DNA from: Halichondria panicea
Lineage: Eukaryota; Porifera; Demospongiae; Suberitida; Halichondriidae
Length of the DNA: 64,000 bases
Assembly: GCF_963675165.1 (NCBI RefSeq)
Contig: NC_087377.1
Span: forward strand, 12,262,632-12,326,631
Reading direction: 5' to 3'
In this document: positions 7,222 through 64,000 of the stretch, piece after piece
How positions within the stretch are numbered: position 1 is the stretch's first letter
Layout of the letters: each line of letters starts with the position of its first letter
Notes under the pieces: generated by a model
What the model saw: the letters and a program-made list of their open reading frames with translations, nothing else
Told to the model about the DNA's origin: nothing
Databases searched by the model: none
Made by a program: the position numbers and the translations under genes

Positions 7222-10146
7222 ATGACACTAATAGAGATAATAAAGCTCATTACAGTTCTCCTGATTTGCTTTCTAGCTGGCTTCAGCACTGGTAAGACTG
7301 ACTATTCAATTATAGATTTCCTTACATTGACACTGCATGTTTCATAAAGCACAATATTCAGTGAGTGTGGAGAGACCATGTCCAATGGAAACAGTCATTT
7401 TCACCTGCACTGCTCCTGGAGATTCCTTGAGATGGGTACCATCAGATGTTTCTGCTCCAATCACTATCCTCTCTACTGCTGATCTCAATGTGCCACAAGA
7501 AATGCAGCCAGGTTACACTTTGACACTGATTGCATTCAGTAGCACTACATTAACATCTACTCTGTCAAGAATAGCAGAGAATGGGATCACAGTGTCCTGT
7601 GTGGGGTTTGATCCTACTTTAAATACTATAGGATCTGCAACAATCCAATTAGTTGGTGAGTTGCAGTTAGTGTCTCGGCCATAATTGTAAATGTTACGTA
7701 ATTATAGAACCACCAGGACCACCTTCCAGCAAAAGACACTCGATTCTGAGGATCTCAGCCAATGCAGTCAATGTATCTGTACAGTGGAACCCTCCTACTG
7801 AGACTGGTGGTAGAGATGACCTCACCTACACAGTGACCATCTCACCTCCGGCCCAGCTCTCCGCTATTGTCCTCACATCCACCTCTGTCACTGTGACTGC
7901 TCAATACAATGTGGACTACACTGTCAGTGTTGTGGCTACCAACTGTGCTGGGAACAGTACAGCAGCTGCCTACAATTTTAGAATCGGTTAGTCGAGTCGG
8001 ACGTATATAGTCTTTAAACAGCATACTATTAAAAAACACTGACTCCCTCTTGTGCAGGTGGCTGTCCTGTGTTGAATGGAGCGTTTGGACCAACCACCAG
8101 CAGATTGCCAGGATCTACAGTATTCATCCAGTGTGGCGCTGGGTATGTGTCTGCTGTTACAATGGTGACATGTGAGGGTACACTGATGTGGAGTCCAGAC
8201 CCCGATATTGAGTGTACATTGCAAACCACACCTTCTCCTACACCGTGTAAGTTTTGTTTGCATGTGCATGTAGATGAAATTTAATTTTTGATCTTCTAGT
8301 CCCTCCAATGAACTGTACAGCTTCACTATCCCCACCATGGAATGGCACCATCGGTAATCATTCAGTATCAGCTATTCCTGGTACACAAGTGACCTTCCAG
8401 TGTAACGATGGACTATTCCCTGAGGGCATAATGAATGTCACTTGTCTAGCTACAGGAGAGTGGGACAAGATCCCAGGGGAGATCGTCTGCAGAAATGAGT
8501 CTAGTAAATTTCCTGATTTATGGTTTAGTGTGCTCAATTTATTGAGCTCAAAGTCGAATTACTAAAACTTCAAATGAGCGTATAAATATTCCATTTTTAC
8601 ATCAATCATATAATTATCCTTGTATATAGTTTCGTGTGTCCTGCCTGCCCCTATATAGTCATCCATACACCATTCCTTGCAGTCTTCTGTGTCCTGCCTG
8701 CCCCTCCACTCAATGGAACATTACTCAACACCAACTCTCTGAACACTAACCTAGTCGAGGGCTCAGTCATTACCTTCCAATGTGATCCTGGGTTCTCACT
8801 GGTGGGTGCAGTGACTGTCACTTGTAACAACTCTGGTCTCTGGGATCCTGACCCGGCTCAGTTGGAGTGTGTTTGTACGTATACATATATGAATAGCAAT
8901 AAATCAGCTGGTACAACGATATACCGTAAATGCGCGAAATTTTCGAGGCATGCACTTACCGGAAACACTCCCAGGCCACGCCTTTAATATTTGCACGTTA
9001 TAGCAGATAATTTAGCGAAAATTAAGCCCCTCAAAAATTTGGGGCTATACTGTATAGCTCAAGGTTCCAATTATATATATAGCTAGACTCTCGCTATTCC
9101 GACTCTTTGAAGTACGACCACCTCGATATATACCTGCCATTTGGTTTGGCACGGATTGCACAAATAAACCAGGCTCACCCTGAAATACGGCCACTCGCTA
9201 TATTAATTCCGTATACTCTCAACTAGGTTTTTAATGTATGCCCCAAACTAGGTTTTCAATGTACGTTTACGCCGGACATGGTGTGGTTTGGCTGGATTAC
9301 ACTTAGAGAGCAGAATGATTTCATTATCCTCGAGACAGAACCGCAATATTAGTCATTAGATTCGAGGTAAAGTAGTTTTTAAGCCACAGCTATTTTCTGA
9401 AATACAGCCACCTCGCTATTCCGGCTAAGTTGCACTGTCCCAAGGTTGACCGAATTAACGAGAGTCTACTGTATACTAATTTATTGTTTATTGATTATTG
9501 ATATTTATGGCACTTAATATTAAATTGATATGATAGAGAGGTTAATCTTTTGTTTGGAAGGTTATAATTAGTTTAAGTAGGGAACTTCAGGGAAGGAAGC
9601 CGCTCATGGTATCGAGGCCGCAAAAAAACACTAACTTTTGAGCAAAATTGGCGAAAATAAAATTTAACTCTTGAAAATTAACATGTTCATACACAATTAT
9701 TATACTTGACATAATTTGTATACCTCATACAACACAGTACTCTGATTGTGATAATTGTCTATGATTATACAGGCTTCAAGTTATAGTGCTCTATTTGTTG
9801 TCCTAATAATTATTGCCAATCCTTCACAGCTCCAACTGCTACCACCACCCTATCGACTGGTGTAACTGTTGCCATCGGTGTTACTACTACTTTTGTGTTG
9901 TCTACTCTATTTCTCGCTGGACTCCTAGTGATGTACTCGTCCACGCGTAAGAAGGCAGTGTACTTCACAAGAAAAACAGCATTATCTGTTGTAGAACCCA
10001 CTAAACCAGTTGGTCCTGTTTATGAGGAGGTGTTACCCAAAAAGGATATTGAACTGAACACTAACCAGGCGTACGGACCAGTAGGACCACCCAAAGAGGA
10101 TATTGAACTGCATACTAACCAGGCGTATGGACCATTAGGACTGTGA
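7222..10146 (+). CDS. Ig-FN3-CCP3 single-pass receptor, type-1 tyrosine tail
   Basis: Seven exons: 7222-7291, 7350-7655, 7708-7986, 8058-8246, 8300-8503, 8683-8874, 9830-10146. They sum to 1557 bases, in frame, 518 aa. Order: signal peptide (1-23, LITVLLICFLAGFST); Ig-like domain (24-125; PCPMETV, FTC, LRW, ITVSC); FN3 (126-218; TETGGRDDLTYTVTIS, TNCAGNST); three CCP domains with four Cys each (219-281, 282-349, 350-413); membrane span (about 425-449) followed by Arg-Lys-Lys; tail to 518. The tail has PVYEEV (Tyr478) and two copies of NQAYGP (Tyr495, Tyr513) from a local duplication found only in this copy. The usual donor after CCP2 is lost; a GT 13 bases downstream keeps the phase. Intron 6 holds a transposon remnant. 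The domains suggest cell-surface recognition; the ligand is unknown. Splicing is inferred. Confidence 0.85.
9087..9474. mobile_element. Tc1/pogo-like element remnant in intron 6
   Basis: Ends resemble each other in inverse orientation: gactctcgctattccgactc at the left and cgagagtctactgta at the right. Related pieces are at 16335-16382 and 37295-37444. No transposase is seen. Assignment to a pogo/Tigger-type family rests only on the end motif. Confidence 0.4.
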
Positions 10147-12050: not shown

Positions 12051-12168
12051 GGTTTGTATTAGCCTTGGTCCCAGGCCGATTTTTTTTTTAATAGAACGAA
12101 ATTGTAGTAGGCGACCCCTAGCGTTCAATTGGAGACGGATTGGCCTGGGGTCGAGGCTAGGCTTGTAT
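12051..12168. mobile_element. 100-bp Mutator-like MITE with 9-bp target duplication
   Basis: Element 12060-12159 begins TAGCCTTGGTCCCAGGCC and ends GGCCTGGGGTCGAGGCTA, inverted copies of each other. It is flanked by ggtttgtat (12051-12059) and ggcttgtat (12160-12168), a 9-base duplication with one mismatch. No coding capacity. Confidence 0.75.
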
Positions 12169-12189
12169 ATGCAGTCGTCCTACTTACTC

Positions 12190-12245
12190 AATACCACTAG
12201 ATCTACCACATGCCAAATCTAATGTACTGCACACTCACCAGCCTC
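12190..12245 (-). pseudogene. Tiny fragment of Death-domain exon donor flank
   Basis: The words accactagatctaccacatg and gcacactcaccagcctcac match the 3' flank and donor site of the Death-domain exon relic at 365. A further copy is at 21741-21800. Too short to encode anything. Confidence 0.45.
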
Positions 12246-12253
12246 ACAGATAT

Positions 12254-12315
12254 ATACACTTTACATGAGCCCACTACCAAAAGAAAAAGAGGTAGTGGGC
12301 TCATGTAAAGTGTAT
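12254..12315. repeat. Perfect hairpin, 25-bp arms
   Basis: Arms 12254-12278 and 12291-12315 are exact reverse complements with a 12-base A-rich loop. The arm reads through acatgagcccactacc. It lies just before two minisatellites. Confidence 0.85.
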
Positions 12316-12357
12316 CTAGAAAGTGAAAGCACTAGGAGAAAGCAGTGATGTCATTGT

Positions 12358-12787
12358 AATGATGTCATGAATCGTGTAATCACCGTAATGGGTGTAATCA
12401 CCGTAATGTGTGTAATCACCATAATGTGTGTAATCACCGTAATGTGTGTAAAATCACTGTAATGTATGTAATCACCGTAATGGGTGTAATCACCGTAATG
12501 CATGTAATGCATGTAATCACCGTAATGAGTGTAATCACTGTAATCACTGTAATCACAGTAATCACCGTAATGTATGTAATCACCGTAATGGGTGTAATCA
12601 CTGTAATCACAGTAATCACCGTAATGTATGTAATCACCGTAATGTGTGTAATCACCGTAATGTGTGTAATCACCGTAATGTATGTAATCACCGTAATGAG
12701 TGTAATCACTGTAATCACTGTAATCACAGTAATCACCGTAATGTATGTAATCACCGTAATGGGTGTAATCACCGTAATGTATGTAAT
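12358..12787. repeat. Minisatellite, 9/18-bp unit
   Basis: Tandem arrays of gtaatcaccgtaatgtat and the 9-base form gtaatcact. All units are multiples of three, so long open frames appear on both strands; these are artefacts of the repeat. Confidence 0.9.
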
Positions 12788-13196
12788 CATGGTGATGTTG
12801 GTGTATGTACACTGTATGGTGATGTCGGTGTGTGTACACTGTATGGTGATGTTGGTGTGTGTACACTGTATGGTGATGTTGGTGTGTGTACACTGTATGG
12901 TGTGTGTACACTGTATGGTGATGTTGGTGTGTGTACACTGTATATGGTGGTGTTAGTGTGTACACTGTATGGTGATGTTGGTGTGTGTACACTGTATAGT
13001 GATGTTGGTGTGTGTACACTGTATGGTGATGTTGGTGTGTACACTGTATGGTGTGTGTACACTGTATGGTGATGTTAGTGTGTACACTGTATATGGTGGT
13101 GTTAGTGTGTACACTGTATGGTGATGTTGGTGTGTGTACACTGTATGGTGATGTTGGTGTGTGTACACTGTATGGTGATGTTGGTGTGTGTACACA
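12788..13196. repeat. Minisatellite, about 27-bp unit, second array
   Basis: Same unit as the array at 6488-6797 (ggtgatgttggtgtgtgtac, then actgtat), with variants lacking part of the unit. Its position upstream of the second receptor copy shows that satellite and gene were duplicated together. Confidence 0.9.
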
Positions 13197-13573: not shown

Positions 13574-15149
13574 ATGACAATAATAAAACTCATTAGAGTT
13601 CTTCTGATTTGCTATCTGGCTGGCTTCAGCACTGGTAAGACAATTATAGATTTCCTTACATTGAACATTGCATGTTTCTTTACAGCACAATATTCAGTGA
13701 GTGTGGAGAGACCATGTCCAATGGAAACAGTCACTTTCACCTGCACTGCTGCTGGAAATCTCTTGAGATGGAAACTGTCAGATAGTACTAGTTTTACTAT
13801 CGAGATCACCTCCACCTCTGATCTCAATGTACCCAATTTTGTATCAGGTTACACTGTGACACTGATTGCAGCCAATGACACTACATTAACATCCACTCTG
13901 TCAAGAACAGCAGAGAATGGGATCACTGTGTCGTGTGTGGGGTTTATGCCTGTAAGCACAATAGGATCTTCAACAATCCGATTGGTTGGTGAGTTGCAGT
14001 TATATAAAGTATTTCATTGAGTCTTGTTAACTATAGATCCACCAGGACCGCCCTCCATCATAAGACACTCCACTTCAAGCAGCTCAGCCAATGAAGTCAG
14101 CGTATCTGTACAGTGGGACCCTCCTACTGAGACTGGCGGTAGAGATGGCCTCACCTACACAGTGACCACCTCACCTCTGACCCAGCTCTCTGCTACTGTC
14201 CTCACATCCACCTCTGTCACTGTGACTGCTCAATTCAATGTGGACTACACTGTCAGTGTTGTGGCTATCAATTGTGCTGGGAACAGTACAACTGCTGAGT
14301 ACAGTTTTAGGATTGGTGAGAATTTTTTTTTTTACTGTGTCAACTTTTTCTCAGGAAACTGTCCTGTATTGACCGATCCAATGAATGGAGCATTTGGACC
14401 ACCTACCAGCAGCTAGGTTGCCAGGATCCACGGTAACCATCCAGTGTGACGCTGGGTATGTATCTGCTGTTACAATGGTGACATGTGAGGGTACACTGAT
14501 GTGGAGTCCAGACCCTGAGGCTATTGAGTGTACATTACTAACCACACCTACTCCTACAACTCGTGAGTTAAGCTCTTGGTTGTAGGAAATAAACACAAAA
14601 TATCTATGTTAATCATTACACAGCTCCTCCAATAAACTGCACAGCTTCACTACCCCCACCAAGGAATGGTATTATCAGTGATCATTCAGTACCAGCTATT
14701 CCCGGCACACAAGTTACCCTCCATTGTGACGATGAACTGTTCCCTGAGGGAATAATGACTGCTACCTGTCTAGCTACAGGAAAGTGGGACGAGGAGATCG
14801 TCTGCAGAGGCAAGTGTATTCATACACTTGCTTGCAATAATACTTTTCTCTTAAACAACCTACAGCTGCTCCTTGTAATTGTGCCAGCCTATCTGATGGG
14901 AGTCGATTTGATGCAGCTGTCTCCATCAGCGTGGTTGTCACGACAGTTGCGTTCACAATCATTGGATTGTTGATAGGACTCTTGATCATGCATTTGCTCA
15001 TGCGTAAGAAGGCAGCGTACTCCCCGTCAGCTAAAGGACAAGCTAATGTAGGACCCACTGTACCAGCTGGTCCTGTTTATGAGGAGGTGTCACCCAAAGA
15101 GGAGATTGAACTGAATACTAACCAGGCGTATGGACCAGTAGGACTGTGA
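13574..15149 (+). pseudogene. Ig-FN3-CCP2 receptor copy with frameshift in CCP1
   Basis: Exons: 13574-13634 (signal peptide MTIIKLIRVLLICYLAG), 13686-13988 (Ig-like), 14037-14315 (FN3), 14355-14562 (CCP1), 14624-14809 (CCP2), 14866-15149 (membrane span and tail). The third CCP of the 7222 gene is absent; CCP2 joins straight to the span exon. In CCP1 four extra bases after Pro-Thr-Ser-Ser give an in-frame TAG; reading resumes in another frame (LPGSTVTIQCDAGY) to the exon end. The exon is 208 bases where its paralogues are 189 or 204. Because it is phase 1-1, skipping it would restore an open protein of SP-Ig-FN3-CCP2-TM-tail. The tail is intact: PVYEEV, NQAYGPVGL, stop. The donor after CCP2 is GC (gag/gcaagt). 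It could be a recent pseudogene or an exon-skipped functional gene. Confidence 0.8.
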
Positions 15150-15399: not shown

Positions 15400-15453
15400 T
15401 TTATGTTATTACTATGCCTCGGTGCGTATGCGCAAGCAAGGTATACGATATAG

Positions 15454-15493
<40 letters not shown>

Positions 15494-23714: not shown

Positions 23715-24780
23715 GTGCTTGGTGTATTGTTTAGAAAGGCGTGGGGTTCATTGTTAGCCAAATACCAGCCAACACCTTTTCGTTGATGAAAACTTTGTGC
23801 TATACACAACAAACGTACTATAAGACATGGGTGCATCTGGTTTTGTGGCACTCAACTTACAGTTTAGGTGGGCATGAGGAAGGCAGCGTCTTTAGTTTCT
23901 CAGGGCTGTCACCTTGCATGTCAACATGTGAGATAGAGGAGATGGGAGGGGGCGAGGCTTCGTCATGCATACTTGTACATGGTCTTCAGTACAGCATTCA
24001 TGTTCAACTCTATACTGGCAGACGGACCTGTGAGTGAGGCTGAGAATGGAGTCTTAATTGTTACATTTTCTCCACCTCCTGCAAGTGATCACGGTTCTTG
24101 CTTTTGTTGATTATGTGCACACACACAAGGAAATCCATTAATATGATGCATTGCTGGTAAGTTTTGCAATCTTTTAGGTGTCTGCATAGCAATATAAGCA
24201 AACTACGTGTACCTGCATGTAGCTTAAAGCATTAGAAACCCCAAAATACCTATCCCTACATACACCCCTCACCCTCGAACATTTTTCAGTGTCACTGTGG
24301 ACCCATACTGCATAATATTATACCTTATACTGTATAAACGTACCTCCTGAATGATGTCAGATTGCACGGCATTGATAAATTAAAGTCAGCAATCGGATTG
24401 TGAGGGAAAAGAAGATAATTATGATATGAACACACTGTATAAATTATAACCAACAATAAAACATGCATGTTCTGGTAGAGCCTCAATCTAATTACAGCTA
24501 GCTAGATCAAAGGGGGTAATTATGTTGCACCAGAGGATTGAGGCTAACTTGTATAATTATAGGCGACTATACTGACCTAGTTTTTGGTGTTGGTGGACAT
24601 AAAATGTTATTTTTCAGGGAAAATCAAACTTTTTTCTTTGCAAATTTTACTCAGAATCAGAGATACAACTCGATTGCCATTCATCATATAAGACTACCAC
24701 TCGTAACACCAGGCAGAGTGCAGGTGAAGACAACAGTGTCACCAGGACAGGCCTGGCCACAGTGGAGGTGAATATCTAAG
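23715..24780 (-). pseudogene. Relic of a type-2 receptor (Ig start and proline-rich tail)
   Basis: On the minus strand, 24690-24780 encodes the start of an Ig-like exon (GQACPGDTVVFTCTLPG), matching the Cys-Pro and FTC signature of the cluster, then loses its frame. At 23870-23920 is a piece matching the penultimate exon of the 29023 gene (GDSPEKLKTLPSS, donor aaact/gtaagt kept). At 23720-23765 a decayed version of its last exon lies before the same cactaggt stop context. Near 24010-24030 a fragment reads SIELNMNAV, like the tail tyrosine exons. The domains between are missing. A dead copy whose tail resembles the ITIM/Death-domain receptor. Confidence 0.55.
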
Positions 24781-25232
24781 CGGCTGAATGACATATCTGT
24801 GCAAACGTTTCTACAATCTGGACAAGGGTGACTACATCTCAGCATCACACACAATTGCATTGCTGTCAGAAAAACCGATGTATTCGAGTAATCTTGAACC
24901 AATGAACTTCTCTATTACATATAGGGAGTTATTCATGGCTAATGTATACACTTATAAATGTGTTTACTGCATGTTGACGCTAACCACTGGCATGTTATTG
25001 CACTGTTATGATAGATTGAACCATGCAGTAAGATAAACTATAATTAACCCCAACTACCGCAAATACACAATCCACCTTCAGAAACGAAAACATTAGACAT
25101 CAGTATTTACTAGTTATAGTGACCTGGTCACTATGCATACACAGTATTATGCACATCATGCATATATATATAATTATATGCTATAAGTATGCATAGCAAC
25201 TAGGAAGCAATATAGGTACACGTAGGCTTCAT

Positions 25233-28000: not shown

Positions 28001-29022
28001 CCAACTATCATAAACCAGAGGTCGACATTCATGTGTGCATGCACCAATCACTACAAGTGCTAGCTAGATAGTGCATTGGCCTGCATGAATACTATCACAT
28101 GTCTGCAATGACATCAATGCATGAATTGTGCACCCATGTCGGACCTCCTCTGACCATAAACTGACAATGCATATTCCTATCCCTGAGAAGAGACAGCAAT
28201 TCAACTATATATATAGGCCTCAACAATCCTCTTTTCACCTCACTTGAAATGCAAATCGAGAAACATTATAGCTTCAGTGTACACAGTGGGACCACACTAT
28301 TATAGACTCTGTATACACTAGTCAATACATAATGCTGGCATCCCATGCATTCATAAACAACCAAGAAAATAAAATGGACTTTATAGCCTTAAAATTAAAC
28401 AACTGTTTTTATAGCAGGAAAACTTACTTTCCTATAGAGATACATGTACATGCTATACGTACAGCACCAATGCAGTAGTTATAAATGTATCATTATATAA
28501 TTACGATGACTGTACAGACTCCTAGATATGAATAATGACCTATAACTATTGTAGGGAACAATACATCAAGACAGTTAATTGGCATTGTTTAAAACATATG
28601 CATGTCATTGTGAATTATCATATGCTTGCATGAAAGCTTTGTTATGTACATGTACAGATATAGCTATTAAGTTTCTCCATTGATGCATTACGGAAACTGA
28701 TTAAAAGTAGGCAATAAAAGCCAGGATCATTTAGAACAAGAGCTACAAAACAACTTCACCTGATCACATACATTAAATACAACATGCATGCAATCTAGAG
28801 GATGCCAAAATATATTTCGAGGATAAGCAGCGATAAAAAATTGATGTGTAAAAGTGATTTAAAACAGCAGTAAAATGAACGAATAACAAACTTTGATGTG
28901 TTAAGCATGTAAGCTGAAAATTAAGTGATGGTGACCAAACTACAGCACAAAATAAAAGTGAATTCATGCATGTATTGAGTTGATCTTGTGCTAAAAGAAT
29001 TGTTTAATGCCATACCACAAAC
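28001..29022. other. Gene-poor sequence downstream of the type-2 receptor
   Basis: Probably contains the 3' UTR of the minus-strand receptor. No separate gene recognised. Confidence 0.4.
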
Positions 29023-32000
29023 CTAGTGCTTAAAGGGGTGTGGAGGTGCCGGGGGTTCGATGTTAGGGGCTGGTTTAGGGGGACGGGCTGGAACCATCTC
29101 ACCAGTTCTGTATTGGGAGAGGAAATAAGGATCATGTAGCTATACACAAGTACATGGCAGCGTCTTGACGTAATTATAGTGAAAATCGCATGTTGTCCTA
29201 TTATTCACTGTGATTCGTACAGTGATTAATCGCGTACCAGTAATCACTGCCTTGACGACCATACTTTCGAATAACGGCCGCGGCAAATTTTTTTACTGAA
29301 ACTGCTGCTAAAAATGTCCTTAAAACTGCATCACAAACGATTAACAATCAATAGTATGGCTATACTCGTGCAATAAGGGATTCATAACAAGCACTGGCAA
29401 GGTTAATATTAGTATCCTTGCATTGCTTGTTACTCATACTTACGGGGGCACTCAGTGCATTTGCATTTGATATAAAAATAAGTAATCTAGTTGCTTTATG
29501 CATGGACACACTACACCAACCTACAGACACCAACACCTCTTTGTTGGTGTCTGTAGGTTGGTGTATTAAGACTTTGGTTGTACTAAGGAACAGCCATAAC
29601 AATTGTAATGGTAAGATATAATTATTATACCATACATACATAATTATGGGTGAACATTAATTTTAGTATTCAACTTACAGTTTTGGAGGGCGTGACGGAG
29701 GAAGTGTATTTAGCAGTACAGGGCTGTCATCGGTCACTGTGGGGAATTGAGAGGGGAGGGGAGAGGTTTTGTCGTACTTATGCAATGTTTTTGGTGCTGC
29801 CAAACAAGAGCTCAACTCCACAGGGAGACAACCTGTGTGTATGTGTAGAGAGTGTACGTGTCATTGGAATGATTCTCACCATTCTAGTATCGTAAATAGA
29901 AAAACTAGCTAAAGTTACAGATCTTTACATCGATCAGCTCTCTAAAATTCAGCAGAATACAACTACTTGCATGTTGTACAACTTAGATATACTGTATACA
30001 GTGGGTATAAATTTGGAAATTTGGCAAATCAAGGCGAGCTGGGTCGCCAAAATTAAAATTCGCCAATGTTTGCCTTCCTACTCAGTCCCAGTATTTCGTA
30101 AGAGATCAATGCATGCAGCATGAAATGATTGTCAAATTAAAAATTGCCAATAATAGTTCAATTGCCTTTTTCGCCAAATTTACCCGCTATACAATAATTA
30201 TATTGTTCTGGAACCTCCACATATCAAAGGGCTAAAGGTGACTATAGGTGAAGTACATCGTGTTGGTGATTGTTCAACATGTGAACTATACGTACATAGT
30301 CTGCGTATATACAGTATACTATAAACTGAGACATGCAGCTACACAGTAGGTTGCAATTGGTATGTCAGCAAATGAATCACACAGTGGACACTGTCAGGTA
30401 CGTAGGTGTATACTATAGTGGTTCCCTAAGTACAAGGAAGCGAGCATACATGTACAATTATGTTTTTTGAAGCCACCACTCTGATTCACTATGAATTGTG
30501 GTGGTATACCACAGGTCAGTCATAGTGAATGTATGTGGTGGCTTAGGACAACATATGCACTATCACTATACACACAACCACTCTTGGGAAAATGTATGTT
30601 TGCAACACTGGATCATCACCTTTTAAGAAAGCATCATAACAATTATTATACATGATGTTAGTGACATCATCAAATAAATTGATAGGCAAGTTAAGAATGC
30701 ATCCTATTTAAGCTGTTCAACAACTATGTATAATATGTGACAATATCAACTATGAAATGTACTGCATAATTTCAACTATGTAACAATATCAATCTTATAT
30801 ACCGTACGGGTGGAAAATTTCGAGGGTGTAAATTTTCGTGCAATTCAATATTCTGTCTTATTTGGAAATTTTCGCGGGTAGTAAATTTCGTGGAGTTAGG
30901 GTGTGGCACTATCTCACATGCGTATACGAAGCCTTCCACGGGTTTTAATTTTCGTGTTCTGCAGCCACCCACGAAAAACGCGAAATTAAAAACACCTCGA
31001 AATTTTCTACCCGTACGGTAGTGCTTAGATAATAGTAGGGCTTAATAAAGCATTGGAGTATCAAATATTATAATTATTCAGAAAAATTAGTGTATATATG
31101 CACTGACTGACTGTACTCACTAATGTCGTAGATAGTCATGAGTTCCTTTGCCAGTTGCTCCTCCCCAATCTTACTGAGATGGTTAGTCAACTCCCTCCAC
31201 GTTGGTTGTCCAGAGCAACTCCATTGGTTAATCACCTCCGTCAAGCAGCCAGCACTGTCATTGCAACATGAATCCTCAATCTATAGTTGAGAAAATGAAG
31301 TATAGTTTTATTTTGCCAGTAGTAATGTGTGACAAAACAATGGTAAAGCAGGGCATGAGAAAGTTACTGTCTACTAAAAGAACATGTAGCTCATACCATC
31401 AACAATTTCAATCTATTAAGAATGATGATGAATCTATGTTTATATCCATCTGCTCACACTTGCAATTGATATCTTTATACATGCAGCATACAATGATTGC
31501 CTCTTAATTGATGGGATTACATATACATACCTGTTCGATCAATGTCTCTGGCAGCCTCATAGTCTCAGCCAGCTCTCTCCACTTGTGTTTCATTGACCTG
31601 ATCTGCACCAAGGCCTGGTCAATGTCCAGGAGTTTGTCCACATCTGCCGAGGCTGAGGCTGTATGTTTATATGGGAATAAAAACACTGTTTCTAAGTTAT
31701 ACGTCCACTACATCAGAATTTATGGCAGTAAACCTCCGAGGATGAGGGCGAAGCTCCGAGGCCAAGGGTGGTTTACGTTTGCCATAAATTTGAATGTAGT
31801 GGACAATAAGTGTTATATACCCACTTGAATTAAAAGTACTTGCTACCTAAGCTACCTCACCTTGGATAAAACTAGCTAACAGTACGTCTCAAAAACGATT
31901 AAAAACGAACAAAAGTTTGTGCGTATAGCTTGTAGCCAGTGCTAAGCTTCTACAGCTCAACGCAATAACTTGTTAATGTCCAAGCAGTGAGCCCCACTCT

Positions 32001-34345
32001 TCCTCCAGCCTTCCTGGTGTTTAGCGATCCCCACCCATCTGTCCTACCCTTGTCAACAAGTGTCTATGTAGATCTAGTATAAAATCAGTGTGCCCTCAAG
32101 GCAAGGGAGTTTATGAGGAATGTGCTCTATATATAGGGCTGGTGTTTATGGTAGTTAAACCCCAGCCAGTTGCTATGATACAAACCCCAAGTGGGGTTAT
32201 AGACACTGCAACAGACATGGACTAGATAAACAATTTCTCTACAGTTTAATCACAATAATGGGAAAACTTATAAGGCTTCTGAATCAATACATTCTCTACC
32301 AGGAACACAGACTATATGCATGTAGCCTGTATACACTGCGATGAGAAGATGTTATCATTATCTTGTACAACTATCAAAACCATGCATCCACAATGAACAA
32401 AGCAATGACACAAACAGACTCACCTGTTGGGCTAGCTGGGATAGTGACTGTTTTAGCTGCTTGTTTTCTGGTGGCATCAGCATCGACAGTGGCATAAGTC
32501 ACCTGATGATGGTCCACTGTGGCAGTCGTGTTGCCTTTCTTGCGGGGCTGGCAGGAGCTAAGGGCAGCATAGATTACCGGCTCCACTGTGGCCTGGAGTG
32601 GCAAGAAACAGACAAAATAAAGAATTACATTTCACTTACAGATATGGTCCCTACACAAGCAGAAGATAGTGTGCATGTCAAACATTTCGTGAAATTACCA
32701 AACACATGTAAAGTCTAGACAAATTAAATACTCTCATAGTACTATTATGACTGGCATTTTACAATAGAAAGCCTACATCAAATTTATCATCCATTTCCAT
32801 ACTGTCATTTGATTTAAGTCTTACACTCTCTGTGAATATAATATTATTCATGATTAATTTGTCAGACGATGAAATAATGTGTCAACTCACCTTCTCTCTT
32901 TCCTCTGAGAACCACCAACAGAACTATCACCACCAGGATGATAAGTACCATGATCACTATACTACCAACAACACCTCCAGCTACAGCAGTAACATTTCCA
33001 GTTTCTGGGTCTATAGGTCATTATAGTTAATTATGCAGCATACAAGTACGTGGACATTAAACTTACATGAGCACTTAAATAGAGCCGGGTCAGGATCCCA
33101 GAGACCAGAGTTGTTACAAGTGGCAGTTGCTACACCCACCAGTGAGAACCCAGGATCACATTGGAAGGTAATGACTGAGCCCTCGGTTAGGCTAGTGTTC
33201 TGAGAGTTGGTGTTGAGTAATGTTCCATTGAGTGGAGGGGCAGGCAGGACACACGAAACTGGGTACAAGGACAATTGAATAGAATTATGTATCTGGTAAT
33301 AAAATCGAATCTACGGTACTAAGAGGGAATCGGTAGTGTACACATGTACACATGTACTCTGTCGACTCACCAATCCTAAAACTGTACTCAGCAGTCGTAC
33401 TGTTCCCAGCACAGTTGGTAGCCACAACACTGACAGTGTAGTCCACATTGTATTGAGTAGTCACAGTGACAGAGGTGGATGTGAGGACAGTAGCAGAGAG
33501 CTGGGTCAAAGATGAGATGGTCACTGTGTAGGTGAGGTCATCTTTACCACCAGTCTCAGCAGGAAGGTCCCAATCAATAGTCACATTAACTTCATTGGCT
33601 GAGCTGCTTGGAGTGGAGTGTCTTATTATGGTGGAAGGTGGTCCTGGTGGTTCTATATAATTATATTAAAGTTAATATGGATGAGACTACAACTCACCAA
33701 CCAATTGCACTGTTGAAGACCCTATAGTGCTTACAGGCACAAACCCCACACAGGACACAGTGATCCCATTCTCTGCTGTTCTTGACAGAGTTGATGTTAA
33801 TGTAGTGTCATTGAATGCAGTTAGTTTCACAGTGTAACCTGATTGCATTAGCGATACATTGAGATCAATGGTGTTGCGAACAGTGATGGGAGCTGAGGTA
33901 TCTGATGGTACCCATCTCAAGGAATCTCCAGGAGCAGTGCAGGTGAAAGTGACTGTTTCCATTGGACATGGTCTCTCCGCACTTACTGAATATTGGGCTG
34001 TGAAGGAACGTATAGTAACTATTTAAAGTGAAGACTCAAATTGGTTAAATAGTGAATTAACTTTGCTCACTGAAGATTGTGCTGTAAAGAAAACAGATTA
34101 TAATATAAAATTCCACAATTTAATATATATAGCTCAAAGCAGAAATGCTAGAACTATAGCAAAGAAGTCTCCACTGCACTGCACTGATGGACGCGGCTCT
34201 ATCAGTGAGGCTACCCCCAAGGGCCCACCACTATCTGAGAGACACTGTTCAGTAGCTTGTTATAGATCTACCATGTACCAGTGATAGCACTCAGAGAAGC
34301 AAAATAGAACACGACCACAATGTCAATGTTCAACTTGAGAGACAT
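29023..34345 (-). CDS. Ig-FN3-CCP receptor with two ITIM-like motifs and Death domain
   Basis: Eleven minus-strand exons: 34345-34279, 33997-33698, 33652-33371, 33258-33067, 33010-32891, 32650-32640, 32592-32424, 31658-31531, 31280-31121, 29736-29679, 29107-29023; 1572 bases, 523 aa, every phase consistent. Signal peptide (MSLKLNIDIVVVFYFASLSA); Ig-like 23-122; FN3 123-216; one CCP 217-280; membrane span about 290-315 then RGKRE. An 11-base exon at 32640-32650 is needed to restore the frame. Tail: VIYAAL (Tyr332) and VTYATV (Tyr357), both fitting the ITIM consensus; Death domain 384-476 (KWRELAETMRLPETLIEQ, then CLTEVINQW and PTWRELTNHL); proline-rich end (PPSRPPK, PARPPKPAPN). By family knowledge ITIMs recruit SH2 phosphatases, Death domains assemble signalling adaptors, and RPPKPxP can bind SH3. 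If the donor at 31120 is not used, reading ends at 31074 (491 aa). Ectodomain and span are secure; the last two exons are less so. Confidence 0.8.
29512..29565. repeat. Perfect hairpin, 24-bp arms, 6-base loop
   Basis: Arms 29512-29535 and 29542-29565 are exact reverse complements (arm includes aacctacagacaccaaca). It lies beyond the penultimate exon of the minus-strand receptor, in its last intron. Confidence 0.9.
30800..31020. mobile_element. Fold-back MITE (AATTTTCG family) in receptor intron
   Basis: Ends accgtacgggtggaaaattt and aattttctacccgtacggt are inverted copies, flanked by TA on both sides. It lies in the intron between the Death-domain exon and the proline-rich exons. Non-coding. 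Confidence 0.65.
31703..31804. repeat. Inverted repeat in receptor intron
   Basis: Left gtccactacatcagaattta and right taaatttgaatgtagtggac pair with few mismatches; inside, tggcagtaaacc pairs with ggtttacgtttgcca. It lies just upstream (on the minus strand) of the first Death-domain exon. Confidence 0.65.
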
Positions 34346-35392: not shown

Positions 35393-36485
35393 ATGATTAG
35401 GTCAGTGCTGCTTTTAGGAGTTTGTACATGTTTGATTGTGAATGTGTCCAGTCAGACGATGCTTAGGTCTTCTCTGCAATCAACCAACCAAACTTATGTT
35501 TGTCCTCATGAGATTGTTATTTATGTCTGCAGTGGAGTTGGAGATGTTATCGACCTGTATGCACCACCACATGTTCCATCGGACCTCCCTTTGTCATATG
35601 TGCGTGGATTTGACACTCCGGGGACTGAGTATGTTTTAGGTCCTATTAAAACAAATCTTACTTCAACTATTTTACCTTTGATGGAAGCAGATCTGTTTGT
35701 GCTAAACTCGTCATTGCCGGAGTTTTTTATTATTTGTAGCGTGAGTTCTGAAAATGCTGAAGCCCAGCAGCACAGACCTTCAGGTAAATTGCAGTCTATA
35801 TTAAAACCAATCATAATCCACCCCTAAGACTATTGCCCTAGAGGGCTATCGGGGATATGGTTTAATGCTTAATATTGGAGGGGGTGTTAAAGTAATGTCA
35901 TTTAATATTTCTTTACTATATAGGTCCTCCTTTAGATGTGACTTCTCCTGTGATTGGATCTCTTTTCAGACCAGAGGACTATAACACTGCCAGTGTGGAA
36001 GTTAACTGGGCGCACAATAATGGGAATTATGATCCTAGTTACTACACCGTCCAGTTATTTGAGAATAACACTGAAACTGAATACATCACTATTTCTGCAG
36101 AAAGCAATAGTTTAGTAGCAATATTCTCTGTATCATTTAATGCCGTGGTGGATGTCCATGCAAGGATAATAGTGACGTCCAAATGTAACGAGACAACCAA
36201 GGGAATTTTAACTCGCACCATTCGAATACCAGAGACAACTATACCAGAGACAGCTATACCAGAGACAACTATACCTATATCAGAGATAGCTGTACCAGAG
36301 ACAGCTAGTAAAAGTTAGTATAATTACATACCATTTACGCGTCTATATAAGCCTGTTTATTGAGATCTGATATCTATCTATGTAATGTGACCATACCGTG
36401 GCATCAATACTTTTTTATTCGTGCAGGTAAAAAAACAGCGTACGTGTTCTGGGTAATTCTTTCAGCTGCAGCAGTTGTCCTATAG
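35393..36485 (+). CDS. Ig-FN3 receptor, stalk and probable GPI anchor, no tail
   Basis: Three exons, 35393-35783, 35924-36313 and 36427-36485; 840 bases, 279 aa, phases agree. Signal peptide (MIRSVLLLGVCTCLIVNVSS) and Ig-like domain share exon 1 (YVCPHEI, YVC, FIIC), unlike the other loci, which split them. FN3 (131 to about 235) keeps the single Cys (TSKCNET). A Thr/Ile/Pro/Glu repeat stalk follows (about 236-260; variants of IPETT), then SKK and a 16-residue hydrophobic end (TAYVFWVILSAAAVVL) directly before the stop. With no charged residues after the hydrophobic part, it fits a GPI-attachment signal; a tail-less membrane protein is the alternative. No CCP domains. A short exon at 35321-35338 (MTPTPM) ending in gtaggt could add six residues at the N-terminus. 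It is divergent from the minus-strand receptor starting at 34345. Confidence 0.8.
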
Positions 36486-36760
36486 CAATAGAGTAGGACA
36501 GTTAGTGTCAAACTGCTATTAAAGGTAATTATGCTATAGCTAGTAACAGCAGTATTCGAGGTGTATAAATTATACTGTAAAGTCACGTTTTTGAGTGAAT
36601 TATAATACTTTTATATCTGCCTGGTTTGTTACATGCATGAGACTTGATTTTAGTACGCAGTGCATGTTGAGTAATTAGCTATACTATATATACCGTATAT
36701 ATACTGGTAAATTTCGTGGGATTATACCTATAATAGCTAATTGCATGATTGTGTAAGTAT

Positions 36761-44965: not shown

Positions 44966-44968
44966 TAA

Positions 44969-45751: not shown

Positions 45752-46059
<308 letters not shown>

Positions 46060-50346: not shown

Positions 50347-50377
50347 CTACACCGACCTTGAGCTAACTCCGACGGTG

Positions 50378-52583
50378 ATGGAATTTCTTGTCCAAAGATG
50401 TCTCCTGCTTTGTCTCTACACAACATCAGCTCTAGGTGTTGCAAGTAAGTTCATGTGGTTGTGTATGAGGCTATAGAGCTGAGGCCTAGACTCTCAGTTA
50501 TGTATAGGTTTAGGCTCAGCATGCAGTCAGCACTAATCAACCACAAAATATATTTAAGAAATATGATTCTTATACCAATCATTCTTGTGTGGATATAAGC
50601 TGGCAATCTAACAGTAAACTATTTTGTTTTCAAGGTATCTATTTAATTTTCAGTCTCAGTCTATTGATTTCTACTAAGTTCAGAATCTACTGAGTAATGT
50701 ATGCATGTGCTATAGATCTATGCAGATATGGTGTGTTTAGCTATTAAACTAATTGAACAAAGAGGGCAAGCTTTTTATCACACATGCTGTTATCGTCTAT
50801 TTTTGCAGCCATTCAGTTGACATCCAGCACTGGTGATGGTGCGGCATGTCCAAATGACCCTGTTGTATTCACCTGCTCTGTGAGTGGAACTGTTTTACGA
50901 TGGATAGCTGATCCTCCACCTGGCTATGTCATATCTGGGCAGGTGACACAACTTTTATTTTCTACTATTACTGTTAATCTCCTGCCTGCTGGAGTTGAAG
51001 GATTCATGTTTCAAGCTGCTGTAACGAATACAAGTAATGGTACTCTTACCTCCACTCTCACCACCATCACTGAGGTGTCCTTGCTGAATGGTAGTGTTGT
51101 CACCTGTTCCAGCGGTGGAACAATGGAGTCACGATCAATTACAGTGGCCAGTCAGTGAGCCAAAACAAAACACTGCATGTATATTATTGCATCTCAAACA
51201 GACTCTCCATCGTCTCCATCAACTCCAATATTGGCTTCACAACATAATGTAGTCAGTTCCACTATTATCACTCTGGACTGGGAATCTCCCTCTTCTACTG
51301 GTGGTGTGTCACTCAGCTATGTCCTCATAATCTCCCCAACACCTCTCTCCGGGTCAACAGTCACTGTGGAGACCACCTCAGCACAGATCATTACTTCTTA
51401 CAATATTCTCTACACTGTGGCCATCAGAGCTGTAAACTGTGCTGGATTTAGTAGTGATATTATGATGACGATGATTCCTTCTATTGGTAATTAGTTGCTA
51501 TACACTAGCTAACCTTGTGTTATTTATTTTCTGCATGCTGCAGTTACCTGCCCCTCTAACCCAACACCTGCAAACAGAGTGACCATCAATGGTGCTCCAC
51601 CACTGCCTGCACTAGTAGGATCAACACTAAGCTTCACTTGCAATGGACAGATGGTACTAGCAACCTGTGAGAGTGATGGACGATGGTCACCTGACTCCAC
51701 CACATATAACTGTCCCTCAGGTTAGATAGATCACTTTCATGACTGTTACTATTTGCCCCCTTCCTTAGAGGTCACCTGTGGGCCTCCTGTCACACCTTCC
51801 AGAGGCAGTGTGGACGTTCAGGGCCAGACATCACCCTTTTTGATGGACTCAGTGATAAACTTTCGTTGTGACAAGGGACTTTTCCCAGCTGGTGATATGT
51901 CCAGTACATGTGACAGTGTAGGAGGAGTGGGAATTTGGAGACCAGACACTAATATAATTTGCAGAGACATACCTGGTGAGCATGCCGTTAACTATATAGT
52001 GTGCATCATAACTATAATTATGTTGCATTCACCACAGTCAACTGCTCTCTACCCAAGGAACCATCCAAGGGTATTATTATAGTGGACTATGAGCTGTTGA
52101 ATGAGACAGTGTTCGCGGGAACAATGCTGACTTACCAGTGTGACAATGGACTCTCACTGGCTGGACCCAACACCATCACTTGCACTAATGCTGGAGTCTG
52201 GAGCACTGAGCCTGAGGCAATCATGTGTGTGTCACCAACTGAAGGTGAAGGCCATCATGTGTGTACTTGAATGTGAGTTATGGTTCGTAATCTCATAATA
52301 CCTCGATTTTACAGGTCCTACTGCCACCTCCCTATCCATTGGTGCAGTTGCTGCTATCAGCGTAATTATTACTTTCTTTGTGGCTGCCATTCTTGGATTC
52401 CTCACTGGACTCATAGTGATGCACCTTTGCTCTCGTAAGAAGGCGGTGTACTCTCTAGCAGCTAAAGGACAAGCTAACGTAGGACCCACAGCACAGCCAG
52501 CTGGTCCTGTTTATGAGGAGGTGTCACCTAAAGAGGAGATGGAACTGAACACTAACCAGGCGTATGGACCAGTAGGTCTGTGA
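50378..52583 (+). CDS. Diverged Ig-FN3-CCP3 receptor, type-1 tyrosine tail
   Basis: Exons 50378-50444, 50809-51150, 51202-51486, 51544-51720, 51769-51975, 52038-52244, 52315-52583; 1554 bases, 517 aa, phases agree. Signal peptide (MEFLVQRCLLLCLYTTSALG); Ig-like (ACPNDPVVFTC, LRW, VVTC); FN3 (SSTGGVSLSYVLIIS, VNCAGFSS); three CCP domains with four Cys each; membrane span about 438-467; tail with PVYEEV (Tyr495) and NQAYGPVGL (Tyr512). The ectodomain is far from the 7222 and 13574 copies, yet the tail from RKKAVYSLAAKGQANVGPT on is nearly identical. Likely a cell-surface recognition receptor that signals through tyrosine phosphorylation (inference). A transposon ends 40 bp upstream. Exon structure is well supported; the ligand is unknown. 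Confidence 0.85.
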
Positions 52584-58640: not shown

Positions 58641-58963
58641 CTGTTTTAAAAGTAAATTGTTTTGCAGTGCTTATACATATGAATGCGTTGAGATATACAT
58701 GCATTTGCAGTCACCTAATTAGCAATTACTATCACTTTACTTTATATGATACCTACATCTAAATTGATTGTAAATATTGGCTGTAATAAATTATTGTTGT
58801 TATAGAAGTGGTGGGTGTAGATATGTTTGAGAAGAGGGCGGAGTTTACTACTGCATGTGCATGGATAATGTGTGCATGACCGTGCTGTGCACAGCATCTA
58901 AAACAGTGTCTCTCTAGCACACTAGTACTGCAAGCTGCTTGTGCACATAGATCGATCAGTTCA

Positions 58964-60474: not shown

Positions 60475-60599
60475 TTTCTTGTTTCCACGCTTTTTTGTGG
60501 TTCCCCTGGCCAATCCTAGCAATTTTCACATTGCAAATGTTTTTCTAGTCGGATATACATATTATGGCCGGGGTGCATGAGGGCCCTGTGAGGTGCATG

Positions 60600-60845
60600 C
60601 ATCATGGGGTTGCCAATAAAAGTCTGTCAATTGTGAACGCTTATATACTATATATATAGTATAAACTAAATTTGTAATCATTCTGTCAATTGTGAACGCT
60701 TATATCAAACGTATACTATATATATAAATTTGTGATCATTCTGTCAATTGTGAACGCTTATATCAAACGTATACCTTACATGATTCCACAAATAGAAACT
60801 AATTAATTTTGTGAACATTCTGTCAATTGTGAACGCATAATAATA
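60600..60845. repeat. Four spaced copies of a 17-base motif
   Basis: tctgtcaattgtgaacgc occurs four times between 60624 and 60838, with AT-rich spacers partly repeated (ttatatcaaacgtatac). Confidence 0.85.
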
Positions 60846-61275
60846 AAGCGAAAATGTTGAATTTTCTACATAATATTACTTTCATGCAATAGAGATCTAT
60901 ATGCATGACGTATTTATCATACACTCCATGATATAAATGGAGGACTTATTATACTCTGAGTTCATGATAGTTTAATAGTGCATGTACTCAGAGTATAATT
61001 ATAGTGGCAGTTTTTCTAAAAAAAAAGTCAACTTTATTTGTTTTTAGACCCTAATACGCTATATATATATAAACTACACATGCATGTCTATCAGTTTGCA
61101 TAATAGCACTATATATAGGCTATAGAGAATTGGAGACAACTCAAGTTCAGGTAGATTCTTCACCAGTTCTGATAGCAGTATATCATGATTGTGATAGTGT
61201 GATAGTATCACAATTTATGCCCCACCAAAAAACCGTCCACAAATCAAACAGTGTATCCTGCTTTGACGCAAGAAT
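60846..61275. other. Non-coding spacer
   Basis: Contains a short inverted pair around 60950-61005 (tattatactctgagttcatg / atgtactcagagtataat). No gene seen. Confidence 0.4.
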
Positions 61276-61407
61276 AAATTGGATAATTTGCACATGACAT
61301 TAATATTTAATAGCATTCCTGATTTACACAAGCTGTAGCCCAGAGTCACCAGTCCCTTTTCTCCCGCCCCCGTCCAATCAGAGAAAAGGGAGTGGCTTGC
61401 GAGTCTA
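61276..61407. mobile_element. Single end of the RecQ-fragment TIR element
   Basis: Matches 35079-35207 almost base for base (ataatttgcacatgacatta to the terminus gcttgcgagtcta). The opposite end is absent here. Confidence 0.75.
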
Positions 61408-61478
61408 CAGTTATATTAGATCTGCATTCTTCCTCTGGCCGGCTAGGCTAGACATACGCATACGCGCTGCCAGCACTG

Positions 61479-61900
61479 CAGGGGCGTAGCCAGGGGGGGT
61501 GCTAGGGGTGCTCGAGTACCCCCAACCAGCCTGAGTCAAGTATGAAAATCACAGAGAAATGTATCTGATTATCCAGCTGAGCACCCCTTTTCTTCCAAAT
61601 CTTGCTACAGTTAGGCTGTTAGCTAGCTAGTATAGCAAGGAAAACGATTCAGTCTCTACACTGTGAGGTATTCTGGCTTAAAATCTATAACTCTTTTGTG
61701 ATCGTGGCCAGCTTCTTATGCAAATAAACGTTCAGCCACGCCCAACTTGGCAGATAAGTCAATTGTGACGTCATTAATAAGAGGTGTGGCTTCCGGTCAA
61801 CCAAATTTTGGCGCTGCGCGGCTAAAATCGGACGCTTTGCGCCCTCTTTCATCTGTGACATGATAGCACCCCTTTCTCCAAAATCCTGGCTACGCCCCTG
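61479..61900. mobile_element. 422-bp TIR element just upstream of a receptor start
   Basis: Ends caggggcgtagccagg and cctggctacgcccctg are exact inverted copies. No clear flanking duplication. The right end is 34 bp before the start codon of the receptor at 61935. Confidence 0.75.
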
Positions 61901-61934
61901 AGCAAGATAGCAGCGAAGTTGTAAGTGAAGGAGA

Positions 61935-64000
61935 ATGGCAATCAAGATGTGGCACTCATGTGTCTTCCAGCTTTTACTGATTGGCGGTAAGAACCTGTAC
62001 TGCTTTTCTAGTTCTTAAATAGCTAGCTCTATTAAATTATGTCATGTCAAGCTAGAATGCTCATGAAGTGCATTATGATATGAATGATCGATCTGTTCAT
62101 CACCCTGTTAGATTCTTCCACTATACACTTCTGGATACATGTAGGTATTCCGTTGGTGTTGGGTGAACTGACTCGTGACTATACTGGGACCCCCTGTACT
62201 GGAGATGTGGTCTCGCTCACTTGTACAGTGCCTGGAATGTTGTTGGGATGGGATATCCCTGATTCAAATAATCACATAGTACTTGACAGTGGAAGTGAAC
62301 TTCCATTCGTAAGAAATCCATACACAGTAACATCACTTGTGATCAATTCCAATATCACCTCCAATTTGATTTTCCCTGCGATGGAGGGGATCACTATTGG
62401 TTGTTTTCCTGTAGGACAGTTGCAGCTGAGGGAAGAACTCACCATACGGACAGTAGGTGAGGTTATATTGAGGTTATTATTACAATATCATGCTCTTTAC
62501 AGATACTCCTTTACCACCAAATGGATTCAGTAAATCAATTCTGAGTAGCTCAGCCGATGTAGTTAGTGTAGCTGTTGGTTGGAACCCTCCTACTGAGACT
62601 GGTGGTAGAGATGACCTCGACTACACAGTAACTATCTCACCTCCGGCCCAGCTCTCTACTACCGTCCTCACATCCACCTCTGTCACTGTGACTGCTCAAT
62701 ACAATGTGGACTACACTATCAGTGTTGTGGCTACCAATTGTGCTGGGAACAGTACAACAGCTGGGTACAACTTTAGGATCGGTGAGTCAACATCGTCTAA
62801 ATTTAAACAGTACACTACACTGACTCCCTCTAGTGCAGGCAACTGTCCTGTGTTGACCGACCCCATGAATGGAGCGTTTGGACCAACCACCAGTAGTTTA
62901 CCAGGATCCATAGTAACTATCCAGTGTGACGCTGGGTATTTGTCTGCTGTTACGATGGTGACATGTGAAAGTACACTGATGTGGAGTCCAGACCCTGACG
63001 CTATTGAGTGTACATCACTAACCACACCTACTCCCACAATTTGTGAGTTTAAGCTCTTGGCTATATATTTACCCCATGTGTGCATGTGCAGCGAGCAGCA
63101 GGGGTGGAGTGATTGGTGTGTGTGTGTCGGTTTGTGTGTGTGTGTGGACACAAAATGAGCTGTTTGAGCGAACTAGACACTTTCATAGGCTGCTTTAACT
63201 GCTCTACTTAAATATAGTTGAAACTTGTAGGCGATCTTCGAAGGTGAAAAACTAATACGAAATATAAGTGCCTCGAAAATTTCGCGCTATACGGTATATG
63301 ATTGTGAATCTATAAAGCAACGATTAGATTGATTAGTTTTTCACCTTTGAAGATCGCCTACAAGTTTCAACTATATTTATTAAGTTATACGCTATACGGT
63401 ATTACCCTAATGATAAAGATGTTACGGTAAAAAGTTATTGTATCCATTTTGCTGCTGTGCGATGAAGCTCAACGCACAGGGTGAATGCTCTACTGAGCAT
63501 CTTGTTATGGAAATAATACTTCCAACAGTATGTTAATTACACAGCTCCTCCAATGAACTGCACGGCTCCACTATCCCCACCAAGGAATGGCACCATCAGT
63601 GATCATTCAGTACCAGCTATTCCTGGTACACAAGTGACCTTTCAGTGTGACAACGGACTGTTCCCTGAGGGGATAATGACTGCCACCTGTCTAGCTACAG
63701 GAGAGTGGGACAAGAATCCAGGGGAAATTGTCTGCAGAGGCAAGTTTATTCATATATAGTCATGCTTCTATATACCTTGAACCACCTACAGCTGTTTCTT
63801 ACAATAGCAGATTATCTGATGGGAGTCGATTTGATGCAGCTGTCTCCATCAGTGTGGTTGTCACGGCAGTTCTATTCACCGTCATTGGATTGTTGATGGG
63901 ACTCTTGATAATGTATTTGTTCATGCATAAGAAGAATGTGTACTCTCTAGCAGCTAAAGAGCAAGCTAACGTAGGACCCACTGTATCAGCTGGTCCTGTT
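61935..64000 (+). CDS. Ig-FN3-CCP2 receptor, type-1 tail expected, cut by window end
   Basis: Exons 61935-61986 (signal peptide MAIKMWHSCVFQLLLIG), 62145-62456 (Ig-like: TPCTGDVVSLTC, LGW, ITIGC), 62503-62781 (FN3), 62839-63042 (CCP1), 63545-63739 (CCP2), 63792 to beyond 64000 (span and tail start); phases agree. FN3, CCP1, CCP2 and span exons are close to the 7222 and 13574 copies (RDDLDYTVTIS, NCPVLTDPMNGAFGP). The Ig-like exon is very different, so the gene is a mosaic. The span ends FMHKK, where other copies have R-K-K. The frame is open at the edge, stopping just before the Tyr of PVYEEV. The donor after CCP2 is GC. The CCP1-CCP2 intron (502 bp, usually about 60) holds a copy of another receptor's upstream region. 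Confidence 0.85.
63110..63515 (+). repeat. Copy of a receptor upstream region inside an intron
   Basis: 63155-63250 matches 6795-6915 (gagctgtttgagcgaactag, gtaggcgatcttcgaagg) and 63417-63510 matches about 6985-7090 (gttacggtaaaaagttattg, gggtgaatgctct). 63110-63150 is a TG-rich trace of the minisatellite. Between them, arms 63209-63256 and 63332-63379 form a 48-bp inverted repeat with few or no mismatches around a small AATTTTCG-type element. Confidence 0.8.

Follow-up and report, generated by a model that had tools for sequence, protein, structure and literature searches.

In vertebrates, the KIR, LILR, SIRP and Siglec families are linked genes encoding near-identical heads on opposing tails, with immunoreceptor tyrosine-based inhibitory motifs (ITIMs) of the VTYAxV or VxYAxL style, and the activating members of such pairs use charged transmembrane (TM) segments together with adaptors. 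Among invertebrates, the FcoR/fester family of the Botryllus schlosseri fuhc locus consists of type I receptors with immunoglobulin (Ig) and sushi domains and ITIMs or other tyrosine motifs, a multigene set (53 FcoR and over 37 new FF loci) in which each gene is encoded beside a partner of another type (PMC12065747). Here, we describe a sponge locus, the window C1:12262632-12326631 (the whole 64-kb stretch that was analysed), together with its relatives in the genome searched (131 Mb, 39 contigs). The window is probably one slice of a multi-megabase, duplicating cluster of paired, germline-encoded receptors of the cell surface, in which similar heads of Ig, FN3 and CCP (sushi) domains stand on opposing tails, namely a tyrosine tail (Y-tail) bearing the motifs PVYEEV and NQAYGP and a tail bearing two ITIMs and a Death domain. 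It resembles the Botryllus family in its Ig and sushi heads, its tyrosine motifs and an adjacent, unlike partner gene, here represented by the neighbours D and E.

Hand splicing of the window gives six receptor genes (B, C, D, E, F and H; Table 1) together with fragments, of which B, D, E, F and H read through with consistent phases and GT-AG sites, apart from one GC-AG intron in H. Every extracellular exon of these five genes is phase 1 at both ends, so in-frame skipping or exchange of exons would be possible. The initial annotation, made from the letters of the window, had placed PVYEEV/NQAYGP tails on genes at 7222, 13574 and 50378 and expected another at 61935. Such tails are carried by the spliced, read-through genes at 7222-10146 (B, in which the NQAYGP unit is present as a tandem duplicate) and 50378-52583 (F), and that of the 61935 gene (H) is present, ending 72 bases past the window (L049). 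The 13574 gene (C) also has its Y-tail, but its CCP1 exon is frame-broken; the frame is kept if this exon is omitted, and gene C is probably a pseudogene or an exon-skipped form.

The inhibitory-type tail is found on gene D, where the two ITIMs (VIYAAL and VTYATV), the Death domain and the proline-rich end form, as had been proposed, a single minus-strand gene (34345-29020) with consistent phases, and these splice phases support the assignment of the Ig, FN3, CCP, membrane, ITIM and Death exons to one predicted gene. A genome search with the ITIM exon returned 22 matches, 21 on C1 between 11.41 and 13.81 Mb and one, weak, on C7. Nineteen of the 21 C1 matches span nearly the whole exon (15 stop-free, four with a stop) and the remaining two are short. 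All 15 near-full, stop-free exons are followed on the same strand, 0.27-5.8 kb downstream, by a Death exon, which is found behind none of the four with a stop (Fisher p 0.0003, the copies being related, so that the value is a guide only) and behind neither of the short matches. In the ITIM loci covered on their upstream side, CCP exons precede the ITIM exon in the same orientation, except in L011 and L056. The Death exon 1 search gave 23 matches, all on C1; four of these are diverged, matching Death exon 1 at 38-53%, and sit at C1:14.43-14.51 Mb, near the far end of the cluster. The Death domain of gene D itself lies barely above the Pfam cut-off (22.9 bits against 22.6; expect value (E) 9.5e-5), eight of ten scanned paralogues also exceed it (best E 1.7e-7), with the other two slightly below, and a sequence search of the Death domain against solved structures gave no real match. 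A further candidate, the Pfam family SIT (an SHP2-interacting adaptor), matched the TM-ITIM region of gene D below cut-off (E 0.016) and was taken as chance.

Both inhibitory motifs are closely kept. The strict pattern [SILV]xYxx[ILV] is present at ITIM2 in 17 of 17 distinct exons and at ITIM1 in 16, the sole miss being L056, whose ITIM exon has a stop. Across the 15 intact exons, 10 of the 12 columns of the ITIM cores are invariant against 8 of 46 elsewhere, the six key positions are all invariant, and VTYATV is written in seven synonymous codings. The median pairwise ratio of non-synonymous to synonymous change (dN/dS; exons with stops dropped and pairs outside dS 0.03-0.6 excluded) is 0.17 for Death exon 1 and 0.22 for the second Death exon, 0.32 for the ITIM exon, 0.34 for the Y-tail and 0.57 for the Ig exon, with 0.59 for the gene E Ig exon (4 rows). 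Taken with the conservation of the ITIM cores, these values indicate that most of these exons evolve as constrained protein-coding sequence.

For the Y-tail, a protein query produced 296 candidates, and the 150 that were scored all fall on C1 at 11.25-14.93 Mb; the exact codon pattern for GPVYEEV occurs at 218 genome sites, against 0 for a reversed control, and the matches listed, which run in contig order and end within C1, are again all there. All 29 distinct tails, comprising those found by similarity to one tail and the window's own, contain both PVYEEV and NQAYGP. Upstream of the Y-tails in the 30 loci compared (L019-L048, with L019 and L033 being the window's own), Ig, FN3 and CCP follow in order in 24, are partial in four and are lacking in two. 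Identically scoring tails or FN3 exons recur at offsets of ~234 kb (C1:11.80/12.04 Mb) and ~86 kb (12.229/12.315 Mb), which would reflect one of three things: recent segmental duplication, conversion or an assembly effect.

The PVYEEV/NQAYGP tail is neither a strict immunoreceptor tyrosine-based activation motif (ITAM) nor a strict ITIM. YEEV is similar to ligands of Src-type SH2 domains, and NQAY to the NxxY sites of phosphotyrosine-binding (PTB) domains. A genome search for SH2 domains gave 71 matches, among them, as named by eye, SH2-SH2-phosphatase exons of the SHP-2 type (L064), exons of a kinase resembling Src (L065) and SH2 exons of Syk-like character (L066). As for tyrosine-kinase tails, none of the listed kinase matches (129 of 1749 candidates scored) lies within C1 11.25-14.93 Mb. 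Elsewhere, a block at C1:15.55-17.36 Mb, beyond the receptor cluster, holds 26 of the listed PF07714 matches to kinase domains, 15 tandem kinase-domain matches, mostly with long open frames, occupy C10:1.70-1.94 Mb, and an array of ~31 listed Death-domain exon matches lies at C12:1.04-2.08 Mb.

The heads had been described as one shared Ig-FN3-CCP ectodomain. Similar heads do recur across tails, gene D exons matching those of B, C and H within the window at 84-91% on the opposite strand, but the window holds more than one type, the Ig exons of F, H and E being 29%, 31% and 16% identical to that of D. The domain names also fared unevenly in profile searches: Sushi matches gene D at E 3.5e-8, but no Pfam Ig family matches genes B, D, F or H, and in the same four genes fn3 remains below cut-off (best 20.8 bits against 25, E 4.5e-4), so that FN3 is used here as a provisional name. 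The Ig exon of gene D is nevertheless modelled as a V-type beta sandwich, with a predicted local distance difference test score (pLDDT) of 92 and matches to T-cell receptor V domains. A second, diverged head class, typified by gene F, occurs with both tails: in locus L052, a class-2 Ig-FN3-CCP head is found together with ITIM and Death exons, and 6 of the 15 stop-free ITIM exons have a class-2 FN3 exon upstream of them. Among the 150 class-2 FN3 matches scored (of 272 candidates), two are off C1 and three lie outside the main block, at C1 9.87-9.98 Mb.

The interchange of heads between tails is the hallmark of paired receptors, with linked genes, near-identical ectodomains, different cytoplasmic ends and both head classes on both tails. 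The earlier proposal of shared ectodomains on different tails within one linked cluster is supported, and heads from the two tail types interleave on the trees. In the Ig tree (25 rows, 6 ITIM), the starred branches require at least four changes of tail type. A single ITIM clade is rejected by the approximately unbiased (AU) test for Ig (p 0.0019) and for FN3 (p 0.0006; 28 rows, 6 ITIM), with p 0.012 for CCP3 (9 rows, 6 ITIM). The strongest cross-tail pairing, near 13.79 Mb, joins the ITIM locus L051 to the Y-tail locus L023, with ~24 kb between their Ig exons. Their successive 60-base Ig blocks have 59, 55, 60, 60 and 59 identical bases, including a stretch of 179/180, while FN3 blocks have 53-57 of 60 and most CCP blocks fewer, a pattern to be expected if the binding domain had undergone gene conversion. 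The region 13.606-13.611 Mb holds an inverted duplicate, in which an ITIM gene on the minus strand and a Y-tail gene on the plus strand share ~1,050 bp at 91.4%, with 87/92 FN3 and 58/61 CCP3 residues identical, and the match stops between CCP3 and the tails.

Gene E, divergent to gene D, represents the third kind of end, and the hydrophobic, tail-less terminus claimed for the 35393 gene is borne out in its predicted product of 279 aa. It ends in SKKTAYVFWVILSAAAVVL, which, judged by eye, is like a signal for a glycosylphosphatidylinositol (GPI) anchor; the L055 copy has a similar hydrophobic end (two ends compared). No Pfam family exceeds cut-off in gene E (weak Ig_ILCR1, E 0.048, and ComJ, E 0.03) and the model of its Ig exon is of low confidence (pLDDT 61.7, predicted template-modelling score 0.50). 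All 20 matches to this exon, one of them weak, are on C1, giving 19 close copies. Of the 19 near-full ITIM exons, 11 have a gene E copy 2.0-5.5 kb upstream, in every case on the opposite strand, and none has one downstream, against 1.7 expected and a maximum of 7 in 2,000 draws of random placement. The ITIM exon is stop-free in eight of these 11 cases, all with class-1 heads. Among stop-free ITIM genes with a visible head, a gene E partner thus accompanies class 1 in 8/8 and class 2 in 0/6; the fifteenth (12753841) has neither a head in its locus nor a partner. No ITIM exon lies within 8 kb of the other eight gene E copies or of one weak match.

Variation in the class-1 Ig exons (n=23) is concentrated in parts resembling complementarity-determining region 2 (CDR2) and the FG loop, in segments taken from model strands after the alignment had already been viewed. 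The non-synonymous proportion (pN) is 0.28 at residues 32-54, 0.27 at residues 84-92 and 0.07 elsewhere, and the synonymous proportion (pS) is 0.30, 0.36 and 0.16, respectively, giving pN/pS of 0.93, 0.75 and 0.41. As synonymous change is likewise concentrated there, conversion of the remaining Ig sequence may contribute.

A paired-receptor architecture, rather than chance, is well supported by this organization, and recognition with opposing signals is its most likely function. The V-type Ig domain on its FN3-CCP stalk would bind ligand. Upon phosphorylation, the two or three tyrosine motifs of the Y-tail may dock SH2 or PTB proteins of the Src/Syk/Shc type, with a probably activating outcome, while the two strict ITIMs would recruit an SHP-2-type phosphatase and inhibit, and the Death domain and SH3-ligand-like proline-rich end could link the ITIM receptor to a death-fold adaptor. 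The genes for class-1 ITIM receptors lie head-to-head with that for a tail-less Ig-type protein, which is probably anchored by GPI and most likely a co-receptor or cis-ligand under a shared promoter. A more ambitious and rather doubtful version is that the 3-4 Mb as a whole resemble a natural killer (NK)-receptor complex, with V-type Ig receptors in activating/inhibitory pairs, an inhibitory arm connected by its ITIM-plus-Death tail to a cell-death adaptor and a GPI-type partner or self-ligand for class 1, and supply the variable receptors behind sponge allorecognition.

Several observations weigh against a cluster of working paired receptors. The architecture and the inhibitory ITIM pattern agree with the pairing first proposed, but the Y-tail genes do not look like classical activating members: their YEEV-x13-YGPV/L spacing, with Val or Leu at the +3 residues, makes no canonical ITAM, and their hydrophobic membrane segment lacks any K, R, D or E with which an adaptor could associate. 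The pN/pS ratio never exceeds 1, even where Ig variation is greatest, giving no indication of positive selection. For CCP2, a single ITIM clade is not rejected (p 0.084; 25 rows, 4 ITIM). Shuffled labels need as few changes as observed in 32-49 of 500 draws for Ig, in 162-170 of 500 for FN3 and in 500 of 500 for both CCP2 and CCP3; such frequent low values for Ig and FN3 mean that genes scarcely group by tail type in these trees. The ITIM gene of the divergent 13.61 Mb pair has no Ig exon that could be found, one of the 15 intact-ITIM genes, at 13.633 Mb, is interrupted by a stop within its FN3 match, and gene C and the FN3 matches of the Y-tail copies L027 and L029 are broken; with such stops and broken frames, not every copy is a working gene. 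Finally, all exon models were built on the genomic DNA of one assembly.

This last point favours the view of two neighbouring genes, in which the ITIM and Death exons make up one of their own that happens to lie behind the receptor gene. We regard this as highly improbable, given that phases match over all gene D exons, that ITIM and Death occur together in 15/15 stop-free copies with Death missing from all four with an ITIM stop, and that CCP exons precede them on the same strand outside L011 and L056; the placing of these exons with Ig-FN3-CCP in the initial annotation is thus supported. The copies of identical score at the two offsets could mean that uncollapsed haplotypes, an assembly artefact, have inflated the size of the cluster, which also appears very unlikely, as the 150 tail matches are all on a single contig and most are only 64-91% identical to the query, with varied scores.

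Alternatively, these may be tandemly expanded adhesion or matrix receptors engaged in homotypic adhesion, with tyrosines used for trafficking or the cytoskeleton (YxxV as an endocytic and NxxY as a PTB motif), an ITIM/Death variant signalling the survival of attached cells and no self/non-self role. Ig-FN3-CCP is also an adhesion layout, NQAY is an NxxY-type PTB motif and no pooled pN/pS is above 1, but three features suit recognition better and make this explanation unlikely: a single region with 150 or more copies of the tail, duplicates and pseudogenes among them; heads exchanged between opposite tails; and variation concentrated in CDR2- and FG-loop-like segments. That the receptors sense microbes, whether symbionts or pathogens, by the same paired logic is a credible possibility, if short of an even chance, and overlaps with the favoured reading, in which no ligand is specified. 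Paired receptors can be pathogen-driven. The portions of the sources consulted discuss the enlarged SRCR, NLR and Death-domain families of sponges as repertoires of innate immunity (PMC4772301, PMC12909245). Microbial and self ligands are not separable on these sequences.

Table 1. Receptor genes, gene D exons and fragments in the window (positions within the window; SP, signal peptide; JM, juxtamembrane).
Feature	Position	Strand	Basis or remark
Remnant CCP3-CCP2-FN3 matches, partial	3642..4215	-	
Orphan Y-tail exon (PVYEEV, NQAYGP)	5678..5899	+	same-strand upstream ectodomain exon not found
Gene B, SP-Ig-FN3-CCP1-CCP2-CCP3-TM-Y-tail, 518 aa	7222..10146	+	splicing, Pfam
Gene B exons	7222-7291, 7350-7655, 7708-7986, 8058-8246, 8300-8503, 8683-8874, 9830-10146	+	
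Gene C, SP-Ig-FN3-CCP1 (frame-broken)-CCP2-TM-Y-tail	13574..15149	+	splicing
Gene D, SP-Ig-FN3-CCP-TM-JM-ITIM x2-Death domain-Pro-rich tail, 537 aa, 11 exons	29020..34345	-	splicing, Pfam
Gene D Ig V-type exon	33698..33997	-	structure model
Gene D FN3-like exon	33371..33652	-	
Gene D CCP exon	33067..33258	-	Pfam Sushi E 3.5e-8
Gene D TM exon	32891..33010	-	
Gene D JM exon	32777..32829	-	shifts phase 1 to 0
Gene D ITIM exon, VIYAAL + VTYATV	32424..32592	-	
Gene D Death domain exon 1	31531..31658	-	
Gene D Death domain exon 2	31121..31280	-	
Gene D two proline-rich exons, stop included	29736-29679 and 29107-29020	-	
Gene E, SP-Ig-like-FN3-like-stalk-GPI-signal-like end, tail-less, 279 aa	35393..36486	+	divergent to gene D
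Gene E exons	35393-35783, 35924-36313, 36427-36486	+	
Gene F, class-2 SP-Ig-FN3-CCP x3-TM-Y-tail, 517 aa	50378..52583	+	splicing, Pfam
Gene H, SP-Ig (H type)-FN3-CCP1-CCP2-TM-Y-tail, 440 aa	61935..64000, ends 72 bases beyond window	+	splicing; tail in L049

Genes C and H have a GC-AG intron between the CCP2 and membrane exons (14809/14866 and 63739/63792, respectively). Related minisatellites lie upstream of genes B and C (6488-6796 and 12374-13195), an (AC)152 repeat with 100% matches occupies 45755-46058, and a minus-strand frame at 24687-24911 is a probable remnant, lacking family neighbours and containing an Ig-like portion inside which a weak Ig_F match falls. Outside the window, L063 is a cathepsin-L-like frame in which Ser replaces the active Cys and Arg replaces His, probably a dead protease; a search of the cathepsin family for silicatein was uninformative, and its entry CATHSILICATEIN is, to our knowledge, no sponge protein. 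L067 is a nuclear insertion of a COX1 fragment carrying the motif KITGYSYNEVYGKIHFW, which we take to look like that of a sponge or cnidarian.

Compared with vertebrate paired receptors, the sponge cluster has a tyrosine tail of its own, a Death domain on the inhibitory tail and an FN3-CCP stalk. The Hydractinia Alr complex differs, by description rather than by sequence, in head layout, cluster size and the ITIM-plus-Death tail. It is alike, in the portion of the source consulted, in comprising linked invertebrate allorecognition candidates with ITIM/ITAM motifs (PMC12065747). Within sponges, the aggregation factor, SRCR and NLR repertoires are also recognition or immune families, but of other domains and, in the parts of their accounts consulted, not described as ITIM receptors; neither a sponge ITIM receptor nor an ITIM-plus-Death receptor was found in the literature searched, seen in part and with subscription journals and preprints outside its scope. 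According to the sections consulted of a 2025 review, the candidates from sponges, cnidarians and ascidians show no conservation with one another and the invertebrate mechanisms are called a mystery (PMC12065747). If the paired reading is true, activating/inhibitory pairing with canonical-looking ITIMs would extend to a probably non-bilaterian lineage, recognition and a Death domain would be tied in one molecule, and the locus would be a testable candidate for invertebrate recognition through expression, haplotype variation and graft responses. The Botryllus heads, with V-Ig, sushi and two C2 Ig domains and FN3 not named, are set apart by description from the Ig-FN3-CCP heads of the sponge, and a Death domain, present in the sponge ITIM tail, is not named in the FcoR/FF account (PMC12065747). 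Against the 53 FcoR and over 37 new FF loci of that account, the at least 150 Y-tails found here would make the sponge cluster the larger in number of loci (PMC12065747).

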